Origin: Acidobacteriota bacterium
Lineage (GTDB): Bacteria > Acidobacteriota > Terriglobia > Bryobacterales > UBA6623
DNA: 64,000 bases
Direction of reading: 5' to 3'
Assembly: GCA_016125275.1 (NCBI GenBank)
Contig: WGMB01000003.1
Location: 930,001 to 994,000 of the forward strand
In this document: positions 52,630-56,858 of the stretch, piece by piece
Layout: each line of letters starts with the position of its first letter
How positions within the stretch are numbered: position 1 is the first letter of the stretch
Notes under the pieces: generated by a model
The model's database searches: none
Seen by the model: only the letters and a program-made list of their open reading frames with translations
What the model was told of the DNA's origin: nothing
Position numbers and translations under genes: made by a program

Positions 52630-55050
52630 GTGGTGCCTAATCTTCGAGGATTGCTTATCCTCATCGGATTGTTCGCTTGCACGTATTCCTGGCCTGCGCG
52701 GCTTGCCGGCCAGGCCACGGCCCAGCTCAGCGGAACTGTGGTCGACCCGAATGGCGGAGCCGTTCCGTCGGCCTCGGTCAGCCTGTCCAACCCGCTGACC
52801 GGATTCGAGCGCGCCACGCTGACCGGAAACGATGGAAGCTTCTCGATCCTCAACATCCCGTTCCAGAGCTATGAGGTTGCGATCGTGCGCGACGGCTTCG
52901 CACCGCACGTCGAGACCCTCTCGCTGCGCTCCAACGTGCCCGTGGCGCTCGCAGTCCAGCTCGCCCTCGAAGCCCAGCGCGAAGCCATCGACGTGGGCGT
53001 GACTGACCGCGCCCTGCTGATCGACACCGAGGCGACCGGCACACGCACCGAGCTGAACCGGTCGACCATCGAGCGCATGCCGGTGCAGGCCGGAGCGCGG
53101 GGACTGGAGTCGATCCTGCTCAACTTTCCGGGCTTTGCCGCCAATGCCAACGGCGCAATCCATCCGCGCGGCGCCCACAACCAGATGACGTACGTGATCG
53201 ACGGACTGCCGATCAGCGACCAGTTCACGGGCTCGTTCGCCACCTCGATCGACCCCTCGGTGGTGCAGTCGCTCGAGCTGTTCACCGGCGACATCCCGCC
53301 GGAGTACGGCAGCAAGGTCTCCGGCGTGGCGAACATCGTGACGCGCTCGGGCTTCGACGCCGGCAAGCCGTTCTTTGGGACGCTGGAGGTCGGCGGGGGC
53401 GGCTTTGACACCGGGACGTCCCTGCTGCAGCTCGGCGGCGCGCACGGCAAGCTGGGCTACTTTGCGGCGCTGTCGGGCGTGAAGAGTCACCGCTTTCTCG
53501 ACAGCCCCTCGCTGGACAACCTGCACAACGGCGGCAACGCCGAGCGGGCGACGATGCGGCTGGACTACCAGGCCGGCCCGCGCAACATCTTTCGGCTCAG
53601 CGGCATGACCGGCCGGTCGTCGTTTCAGTTGGCGAACCTGCGCTCGCAACACCTCAACGGCCAGGAGCAACGACGGCTGCTGTCGGACGCAGCCGTCTCC
53701 CTGGGCTGGGTCCGGATGCTCTCGCCCACCGCCACCTTCGACTCGACGACCTCGTACCGCACGACGATCGCGCGGCTGCTGCCGAGCCTGGGGGACACGC
53801 CCGTGACGGCCTCGCTGGCGCGGCATCTGTCGACGCTGTCCACCTTCAACCGCTTGAACTGGGACAAGGGAACGCACACGGTGCGGTTGGGGCTGGATTT
53901 TCAGCACTTTCCGGTCAGCGAGAATTTCTCGTTCGGGTTGACCAATCCTGCGTTCAACGACCCCGGGGCGGCGAGCTACAACCCGAACCTGACGCCGTAC
54001 GACCTCGCGCGCGGCGGCGACTGGTTCCGGTTCTCGCAGAAAGGCGCAGGCAGCCTCTACAGCGTCTTCCTGCAAGACCGCATCCACCTGGAGCGGTGGC
54101 GGCTCAACCTCGGCGGACGCTATGACAACTACCGCTTTTTGGTGGTGGGAGCGCAGTTCCAGCCGAGGGTCGGGCTGGCGTATCACCTGAAGGAGACCGG
54201 CACGGTGCTGCGGGCCTCCTACAACCGCAACTTCCAGACGCCGCCCAACGAGAACCTGCTGTTGGCCAACTCCGAGCAGGCCGGCGAGCTCGCGCCGCCG
54301 GACGTGCGGCGGGACCTGAACGGCGGCGTGATCCGCATCCGCCCCCAGCGCCAGAACGTCTACGAGGCCGGCGTGCAACAGAGCCTCGGCGATTGGGCCA
54401 GCCTCAACGCGGTGGTCTACCACAAGGACTCGCACGATCTGCAAGATAACGACAACTTCCTCAACACCGGCATCATCTTCCCGACCTCGCTGGCCCGCTC
54501 GAATGTGAACGGCTTCGAGACGCGGCTGACCGTGCCGGAGAGGAGCCACTGGAGCGGCTCGGTCAGCCTGACGCACTACCACGTGGTCGTGACCCCGCCC
54601 TTCACCGGCGGTCTGTTCCTAGGCAGCAGCGCGCTGGACGTGCTCAGCCAAGGGCCGTTCGTGATCGACCACGATCAGCCGCTGTCGGTCAGCAGTCTGG
54701 TGATGTACCGGCCGCGGCGGAGCTGGTGGACGAGCTGGCAGGCTCGCTACGACTCCGGGTTGGTGGCGAATCCGTCCGACCCGGCCGTGGTGGCGCAGGA
54801 CCCGGACTACTTCGATCAGCTCCCCTACGTCGACCTCGACTCCTACCCGGCCCGGGTGCGGCCCCGGACCATCGTCGACGCCGCGGTCGGCTATGAGCAC
54901 TACAGCGGCGACCACCGCGACTGGGAGCTGGTGCTGCAGGTCTCGAACCTGACCGACAGGACGGCGTTGTACAACTTCCAGTCGGTGTTCGTGGGGACCA
55001 GAGTGGTCCAGCCGCGCACGCTGAGCATGAAGTTCCGCTGGTATTGGTAG
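52630..55050 (+). CDS. TonB-dependent receptor with CarboxypepD_reg-like domain
   Basis: 806 aa from GTG 52630. It has a signal peptide (LLILIGLFACTYSWPARLAG), a regulatory-like domain (LSGTVVDPNGGAVPSASVSL), a plug (RGLESILLNFPGFAANANGA, MTYVIDGLPISDQFTGSFA, IPPEYGSKVSGVANIVTRSG) and a barrel ending in aromatic residues (MKFRWYW). It is shorter than the receptor at 36966 and of a different subfamily, with a plug region rich in ring-binding residues. It is preceded by about 170 bp of non-coding DNA and is likely single. The substrate is unknown; sulfated glycan fragments would fit the neighbours. Confidence 0.92.
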   Translation: MVPNLRGLLILIGLFACTYSWPARLAGQATAQLSGTVVDPNGGAVPSASVSLSNPLTGFERATLTGNDGSFSILNIPFQSYEVAIVRDGFAPHVETLSLRSNVPVALAVQLALEAQREAIDVGVTDRALLIDTEATGTRTELNRSTIERMPVQAGARGLESILLNFPGFAANANGAIHPRGAHNQMTYVIDGLPISDQFTGSFATSIDPSVVQSLELFTGDIPPEYGSKVSGVANIVTRSGFDAGKPFFGTLEVGGGGFDTGTSLLQLGGAHGKLGYFAALSGVKSHRFLDSPSLDNLHNGGNAERATMRLDYQAGPRNIFRLSGMTGRSSFQLANLRSQHLNGQEQRRLLSDAAVSLGWVRMLSPTATFDSTTSYRTTIARLLPSLGDTPVTASLARHLSTLSTFNRLNWDKGTHTVRLGLDFQHFPVSENFSFGLTNPAFNDPGAASYNPNLTPYDLARGGDWFRFSQKGAGSLYSVFLQDRIHLERWRLNLGGRYDNYRFLVVGAQFQPRVGLAYHLKETGTVLRASYNRNFQTPPNENLLLANSEQAGELAPPDVRRDLNGGVIRIRPQRQNVYEAGVQQSLGDWASLNAVVYHKDSHDLQDNDNFLNTGIIFPTSLARSNVNGFETRLTVPERSHWSGSVSLTHYHVVVTPPFTGGLFLGSSALDVLSQGPFVIDHDQPLSVSSLVMYRPRRSWWTSWQARYDSGLVANPSDPAVVAQDPDYFDQLPYVDLDSYPARVRPRTIVDAAVGYEHYSGDHRDWELVLQVSNLTDRTALYNFQSVFVGTRVVQPRTLSMKFRWYW

Positions 55051-55088
55051 CGCGCCCGACTTTCCCCGCGCAAAACGCCGTTCGATCG

Positions 55089-55314
55089 ACCACTTCCGTC
55101 CACCGGCGCGCTCACGACCGCCAATCCGGTCCCTTGCGGCTCGTTCTCAGCTCGTCCGAAGCTCGCCGCGGGGATCCTTCCGCGGTCTCCGGGCCGACGG
55201 GAACGGTCCACTTCGCTCCACGGGGGCCGTCCGCAACCCTCGCCCACCGAAAATCAGGTCCACCGGAGGCTCTCCGACGCCTCGAACCGGCTGTTTTCGT
55301 CCACTGCGGTCCAC
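55089..55314 (-). promoter_or_regulatory. Reverse-oriented MraZ-type box pairs upstream of mraZ
   Basis: Three pairs of TCCAC half-sites spaced exactly 10 bp occur: 55089-55103 (first half ACCAC), 55207-55221 and 55300-55314. A single TCCAC is at 55259-55263. On the minus strand each pair reads GTGGA-N5-GTGGA, the same 10-bp-period TGGA pattern as the boxes next to mraZ. The remaining bases of 55051-55410 contain no gene. Confidence 0.6.
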
Positions 55315-55417
55315 TGGCGATTCGGCGCGCCCAATGGGGCTCCCAGAGCCCAATACCACAACATATGGTGGGCTAGATCCGACCTCATAATTTTTCGAGC
55401 AAAGACCCCCTTTCTCC

Positions 55418-55446
55418 TTGACTCCATTGTGGTCTTGGGCAAGGAT
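55418..55446 (+). promoter_or_regulatory. Probable dcw operon promoter
   Basis: TTGACT (55418-55423) is a five-of-six -35. The best -10 at 17 bp is AAGGAT (55441-55446), a weak match. Transcription would start near 55453, just before the MraZ boxes. Confidence 0.45.
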
Positions 55447-55460
55447 AGGAGGGACCAAAG

Positions 55461-55490
55461 TGGTTCGGAATGGACTAAATTGGACTAGCT
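55461..55490 (+). promoter_or_regulatory. MraZ operator boxes
   Basis: TGG occurs at 55461, 55471 and 55481: TGGTTCGGAA, TGGACTAAAT, TGGACTAGCT. Three direct repeats with a 10-bp period match the known MraZ operator style (TGG-type 5-bp boxes with 5-bp spacers). They lie between the putative promoter and the mraZ ATG, so MraZ bound there would repress its own operon. Confidence 0.8.
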
Positions 55491-55522
55491 AGGGTCGACG
55501 TGGCGGAGAGACGCACCAGGCG

Positions 55523-55981
55523 ATGTTTCGGGGCTTGCAGACAGGCCGAGTGGACGACAAGAACCGGCTCAAAATGCCGGCTCTGGTCCGCAAGAATCTG
55601 CTCGAAAAGTACGGCAGTCCGGACGTGTTCATCACCAGCCTCGATGAGCGCGACGTCAAGATCTTTCCGATCGCCGAGTGGGAGGTTCTCGAGCGGCGAC
55701 TTTCGGAGAAGACAGCCGGCGCGGGCGACCTCGACGGAGAGCGGAAGAACAAGATTTTGTTTTTGGCCAACCACTACGGGGCCGAACAGTCCTTGGACGC
55801 CCAAGGTCGCATCCTCATCCCTGGAGCCTTGCGGGAGGGTCCGGGGATGAGGGGCGAGATCAGCTTACTTTGGCAGTCCAACCACATTCTCGCGCTGAGC
55901 GCAGAGCGGTACAAGGAAAAAACCGCCGAAGCGAAGATGACCGACGCCGACAAGGCGTTTGCTCAGAACCTGGGGTTCTGA
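55523..55981 (+). CDS. mraZ: Transcriptional regulator MraZ
   Basis: 152 aa. Two SpoVT-AbrB-type domains: FRGLQTGRVDDKNRLKMPAL and QSLDAQGRILIPGAL, each with the DxxxR motif (VDDKNR, LDAQGR). MraZ is the first dcw gene and a repressor of the cluster, and it also acts on rsmH levels. The ATG at 55523 follows GGAGAG at a longish distance. The operator boxes lie 32 nt upstream. Confidence 0.95.
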   Translation: MFRGLQTGRVDDKNRLKMPALVRKNLLEKYGSPDVFITSLDERDVKIFPIAEWEVLERRLSEKTAGAGDLDGERKNKILFLANHYGAEQSLDAQGRILIPGALREGPGMRGEISLLWQSNHILALSAERYKEKTAEAKMTDADKAFAQNLGF

Positions 55982-55997
55982 CCGGGACGAGTCGGCT

Positions 55998-56858
55998 TTG
56001 CGACACGATCCCGTTTGCTTGGAGGAGGTTACAGAGTATCTCGCGATCGACCCCGAGGGTGTGTACGTGGATTGCACCTTGGGCGCGGCGGGATACGCCG
56101 AGCGCATTTTGAGCCGCCTGCAAGGCGGCAGGCTCATTGCGATCGACCGTGACGAAACGGCGATCGACAGAGCGCGCGTCAGGCTGGCGGCATACGGAGG
56201 CAAAGTGGAATTCGTGCATGGGGGGTTTGCGGAGATCGCGGAGAAGGTCGAGCCCGGCGTGGCGGGCGTAGCGGCCGATCTGGGCTGGTCTCGCGACCAG
56301 GTGGAAGACCCCGAGCGCGGCTTCAGCTTCCAATACGACGGGCCTCTGGACGCCCGCTTCGACCGGCGACAGGACCTGACCGCCGGCGACATCGTGAATT
56401 TCTACGACGAAAGGGAGCTGGCCAACTTGTTCTACGAGTTGGGCGGCGAAAGGAGGAGCAGAGGAATCGCAAGAGCCATCGTTCGGGGGCGGCCGATTCG
56501 ATCGACCAGGCATCTGGCCGAAATCATCGAACGCGCCGTCCCTCGAGCTCGCGATCAAAAGCTCCACCCCGCGACCAAGTGCTTCGCCGCCTTGCGGATC
56601 GCGACCAATGACGAGATGGGGCAGCTGGACCGGCTGCTCGAGACGGCTCCGCCGCTGCTGCGCCCGGGCGGCCGGATGGTCGTCGTGAGTTTTCACAGTT
56701 TGGAGGATGGACGCGTGAAAAGGGCTTTTCGCCGCTGGGCCGCCGAAGGTCCTTACGAGGTATTGACCAAAAAGGTCGTCACGCCGAGCCAGGAAGAGGT
56801 GGATCGGAATCCGGCCAGCCGCAGCGCCAAGCTGCGCGCTCTGCGGAGGGTCGCATGA
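55998..56858 (+). CDS. rsmH: 16S rRNA (cytosine1402-N4)-methyltransferase
   Basis: 286 aa from TTG 55998, which gives the family start LRHDPVCLEEVTEYL; an upstream TTG at 55959 would overlap mraZ. Motifs: DCTLGAAGYAERIL, IAIDRDETAIDRA, ADLGWSRDQVEDPERGFSF (often DLGxSSxQ), KLHPATKCFAALRIATNDEM, VVSFHSLEDGRVKRAF. It methylates C1402 of 16S rRNA in the decoding centre. Its end overlaps the next start by ATGA. Confidence 0.94.
   Translation: MRHDPVCLEEVTEYLAIDPEGVYVDCTLGAAGYAERILSRLQGGRLIAIDRDETAIDRARVRLAAYGGKVEFVHGGFAEIAEKVEPGVAGVAADLGWSRDQVEDPERGFSFQYDGPLDARFDRRQDLTAGDIVNFYDERELANLFYELGGERRSRGIARAIVRGRPIRSTRHLAEIIERAVPRARDQKLHPATKCFAALRIATNDEMGQLDRLLETAPPLLRPGGRMVVVSFHSLEDGRVKRAFRRWAAEGPYEVLTKKVVTPSQEEVDRNPASRSAKLRALRRVA

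Follow-up and report, generated by a model that had tools for sequence, protein, structure and literature searches.

MraZ, a regulator of cell division genes, is widely conserved, and to our knowledge the regulatory role of its ring shape is not clear. As summarised in PMC8475190, MraZ represses the dcw cluster in E. coli and M. genitalium, and it is reported (Fisunov 2016, via PMC7761207) to form an octameric toroid. The MraZ boxes of E. coli and Mollicutes are described as direct repeats with a GTG core that lie before mraZ and serve dcw autoregulation (Eraso 2014 and Fisunov 2016, via PMC8475190 and PMC7761207), and the PmraBc promoter of Burkholderia cenocepacia is described in PMC7761207 as having, downstream of its -10, four 7-nt repeats with 3-nt spacers (a 10-bp period). 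The locus studied here has direct repeats before mraZ in common with E. coli and Mollicutes, and differs from them in three extra, reversed pairs that it carries 150-370 bp upstream. Its proximal layout matches that of PmraBc, for which the account in PMC7761207, as far as it goes, mentions no reversed distal pairs.

The window, by which we mean the whole 64,000-nucleotide stretch of DNA that was analysed, belongs to a genome of 7.55 Mb whose nearest mraZ relatives are Bryobacterales (Acidobacteriota). In it mraZ is the first gene of the dcw cluster, with mraW next, and is separated by a 472-bp gap from a co-directional TonB-receptor-like gene that ends at 55050. The features of the locus are these:

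52630..55050, + strand: gene for a TonB-receptor-like outer membrane protein, the upstream neighbour of mraZ (Pfam matches)
55088..55103, - strand: pair A of reverse MraZ boxes, reading GTGGACGGAAGTGGTC on the - strand (third in the window by matrix, score 18.1)
55206..55221, - strand: pair B of reverse MraZ boxes, reading GTGGAGCGAAGTGGAC (exact pattern match; fifth in the window by matrix, score 10.9)
55258..55263, - strand: single reverse box GTGGAC, GTCCAC on the + strand (sequence; single-box scan)
55299..55314, - strand: pair C of reverse MraZ boxes, reading GTGGACCGCAGTGGAC (exact pattern match; second in the window by matrix, score 20.9)
55418..55423, + strand: TTGACT, the -35-like hexamer in the dcw promoter (read from the sequence; same layout as TTGACA in relatives)
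55441..55446, + strand: weak -10-like hexamer AAGGAT after a 17-bp spacer (read from the sequence; placed from box positions in relatives)
55451..55486, + strand: proximal MraZ operator with a 10-bp period (first and fourth in the window by matrix)
55523..55981, + strand: mraZ, 152 aa (Pfam PF02381, E 8.3e-11)
55959..56858, + strand: mraW/rsmH, longest frame, whose start may lie further downstream (Pfam PF01795, E 2.1e-89)

An Rfam search of 54900-55700 returned no matches. We also considered whether the intergenic DNA was a dispersed repeat and rejected this, since a search against the genome found no second copy.

The genome holds one copy of mraZ. The protein scores 42.1 bits against the MraZ domain (PF02381, cut-off 23) and falls under the NCBIfam equivalog cut-off of TIGR00242 (57.3 bits against 98.35; E 1.6e-15, 142 residues); it is a divergent family member, and its assignment is based on Pfam, fold and context. 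Both DXXXR motifs (D11-R15 and D92-R96) are present and are invariant in the alignments. The predicted monomer (pLDDT 92.6) matches solved MraZ structures from M. pneumoniae and M. genitalium with Z about 16 (16.4 to 1n0e), including entries titled as complexes with promoter and with 4-box promoter; against M. genitalium MraZ on the 4-box promoter the match has Z 16.1 and an rmsd of 2.9 over 138 residues.

The first-pass annotation of this DNA had placed forward TGG boxes at 55461, 55471 and 55481, and all three are there, reading TGGTT, TGGAC and TGGAC. Upstream of them a degenerate fourth, GGGAC at 55451, stands in register and 4 bp past the plausible -10, from which we read the proximal operator as four boxes in a row, the first of them weak. 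This placement of the operator after the likely -10 is the layout seen in relatives as well.

The three reverse pairs lie 150-370 bp upstream, begin 37 bp past the stop codon of the TonB-receptor-like gene and have the same 10-bp box spacing as the forward operator. They had been described as three copies of GTGGA-N5-GTGGA; a pattern search finds this exactly in pairs B (55207-55221) and C (55300-55314), while pair A (55089-55103) departs from it in its second box, as GTGGA-N5-GTGGT. The single reverse half-site reported alongside them is likewise present at 55258-55263, with no partner at 10 bp and a single-box score of only 5.0. Centre-to-centre distances are 118, 93 and 165 bp, and clear helical phasing was not seen among them. 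The typical MraZ operator is direct and promoter-adjacent, whereas these pairs are distal and in the opposite orientation; the claimed departure from the usual single forward run is supported.

To score such sites we used an operator matrix of 24 columns, built from 80 proximal operator pairs of other genomes with this genome excluded; the training sites were picked as TGG[AT]-N6-TGG[AT], and the matrix therefore carries that assumption. Its top five among about 128,000 positions on the two strands of the window are 55461(+), 55300(-), 55089(-), 55471(+) and 55207(-). None of 3,000 dinucleotide shuffles of 55051-55440 gave two or more matches scoring at least 10; the observed number is three, all reverse. 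A second sequence model, R1, was built from 47 of the proximal operator sequences and run on the whole genome; among the 150 of 420 candidates scored, only pairs A (best) and C (second) reached E <=10, with E-values of 0.8 and 2.7 that are not significant alone. The best R1 match is the proximal operator in most genomes of the family and the reverse pairs in this one. The complete count of the pattern GTCCACTNNNNTCCAC supports the same conclusion: it occurs exactly twice in the 7.55-Mb genome, both times in this gap, and with at most one mismatch at 13 places genome-wide, three of them in this gap. Given these results from both models, the reverse pairs are very likely genuine MraZ operators, and the earlier description of them as MraZ-type boxes agrees with an operator model drawn from other genomes.

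Only pairs, not single boxes, were used for inference. Single reverse boxes appear enriched in the family, a signal confounded by TGTGG motifs that include DnaA-like boxes, and across the order they are not enriched relative to dinucleotide shuffles.

Among 83 mraZ loci, the 130 bp before mraZ hold 74 forward TGG[AT] pairs at exactly 10 bp (other spacings, 0-8), spread over 51 of the 83 loci, and no reverse TGG[AT] pair. The reverse pairs are not a general feature of the relatives, nearly all of which have the forward operator only. Reverse pairs scoring at least 10 and lying 150-500 bp upstream number three here, one in L041, two in L042 and one, weak, in L062. L041 and L042 are two close species of a sister genus, g6, with strong reverse pairs at -253 and -187 together with a strong forward operator; the third g6 species, L040, has no reverse pair. 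Five of 60 further loci from the order carry a reverse pair scoring at least 10, two of them strong and in other genera (L154 at -228, score 25.1; L174 at -315, score 19.4). Control DNA from farther upstream, about 172 kb in all, gave two reverse matches of at least 10, the higher at 13.2, and none reaching 13.5. A check of conservation in relatives, as the first-pass annotation had proposed, thus came out divided: most of the family lacks the reverse pairs, yet they are seen again in g6 and in two genera that are more distant. Since few relatives but several lineages carry them, we regard the arrangement as uncommon yet recurrent.

Several further observations concern the upstream regions of relatives. 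In the 60 further order loci (L149-L208), the 700 bp upstream of mraZ hold 20 forward TGG[AT] pairs at 11 bp and 27 at 10 bp, and the 11-bp spacing contrasts with the strict 10 bp of the first 83 loci. Four Vicinamibacteria-type loci (L072, L079, L085 and L094) carry a tandem of two MraZ-like frames ahead of mraW. Each frame has a forward box array to itself, of which the upstream array is GTGTGGAAAAGTGGAAGAAAGTGTGGAA; the same far-upstream forward matches occur in L074, L075, L080 and L093 (-610 to -730 from mraZ). We rejected these far-upstream matches in Vicinamibacteria-type genomes as distal operators, as they are the operator of the second, tandem mraZ. A CCACAA-N-ATATAG-like or palindromic element at 55354-55372 of the window is also present in L040 to L043 and in L013; it is conserved in the family some 150-210 bp upstream of mraZ and is possibly the site of another regulator. 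In the Terriglobia loci L059, L060, L076, L078 and L109 the exact sequence TTTTCCACA lies ahead of the first MraZ box at a nearly constant distance of 79-82 bp.

We consider the best explanation to be that the reverse pairs serve the cell's own MraZ as auxiliary operators, bridged by the ring to the 4-box forward operator by the -10, which would be the main site, so that repression of dcw is tightened or tuned; we give this a probability of roughly 0.4. An MraZ ring has more binding faces than a 4-box operator uses, which makes bridging to distant pairs a natural reading. With its leftover subunits, a ring that occupies the proximal boxes could hold one distant two-box pair, the intervening 150-370 bp would loop out, and the loop would raise the local MraZ concentration and so repress the dcw promoter more tightly or in a more tuned manner. 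Two-box pairs may be weak sites alone. The steps that we infer are occupancy of the pairs by MraZ, formation of the loop and stronger repression as its effect, and looping at this locus is accordingly a tentative proposal. It is made plausible by the place of the pairs among the top five matrix matches and the top two of R1, by their 10-bp spacing, by their recurrence in g6, L154 and L174, and by a single mraZ whose product folds like solved MraZ, including the 4-box promoter entry 9sz7. Against it stand the absence of reverse pairs from most of the family and from about 55 of the 60 further order loci, single reverse boxes that are not enriched across the order, and distances without clear helical phasing. 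That MraZ of some Bryobacterales acts as a looping repressor of dcw, one ring binding forward boxes and a reversed distant pair at once, seems to us less likely than not. A version in which the pairs compensate for a weak proximal operator was dropped, g6 having a strong forward operator as well as reverse pairs. Our literature search found no paper that joins MraZ, dcw and looping.

Alternatively, the pairs might be remnants of earlier operators or spurious gains that leave dcw expression unchanged, or their only role might be to titrate MraZ. The patchy distribution among relatives, and the difference between the two close g6 species in the weaker pair (-187), would fit such an origin; however, both their recurrence in separate lineages and the presence within 226 bp of three correctly spaced pairs, the genome's best matches, speak against decay, and we hold this reading to be unlikely.

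It is also conceivable, if improbable, that MraZ bound to the reverse pairs acts as a roadblock or insulator against read-through from the TonB-receptor-like gene into the dcw operon. A terminator scan found no intrinsic terminator between 55050 and mraZ, the upstream gene is co-directional in g6 and in L209/L154 as well, and the L154 pair sits about 40 bp past the stop codon of its upstream gene. Termination could, however, be Rho-dependent, and L174/L210 has a strong reverse pair even though its nearest long frame upstream is divergent.

The first-pass annotation had further suggested control of a second, antisense or distal promoter; to control of an antisense or divergent promoter through the reverse boxes we assign a small chance. 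The reverse boxes do face the - strand, and some f1 relatives have in common a reverse CTATATNTTGTGG that looks like a -10 plus box; but neither a -35 nor a sigma-70-like promoter was found on either strand, the DNA around pairs A, B and C is G+C-rich and lacks a -10, the neighbouring gene is co-directional both here and in g6, and family loci with a long divergent upstream frame have no reverse pairs. The null of the sigma-70 consensus scan is weak evidence, since the scan also misses the TTGACT -35 and with it the forward dcw promoter. Sites of another regulator with a similar box, for instance DnaA, are very improbable: a DnaA-box-like reverse TGTGGA, TTTTCCACA, does occur in some Terriglobia, about 80 bp upstream of the operator, but the reverse pairs here read CCACT, CCACG or CCACC, never the CCACA of the DnaA box TTWTNCACA, and have the 10-bp pairing and flanks of MraZ sites.

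A natural promoter that combines a forward operator with reversed distant pairs lets one ask directly whether a single ring is able to hold two DNA segments, and this study also yields a clean model of the MraZ box for Acidobacteriota. Among solved structures, those of M. genitalium MraZ in complex with its 4-box promoter (PDB 9sz7 and 9r4j, going by the titles of the entries) resemble the predicted protein in fold. The arrangement is a variation on known MraZ regulation, not a new kind of system. A repressor with auxiliary operators is LacI, whose main operator and distant secondary ones are bridged by one oligomer; LacI is an unrelated protein, and we draw the comparison only in how the two would work, with the looping by MraZ being our own proposal.
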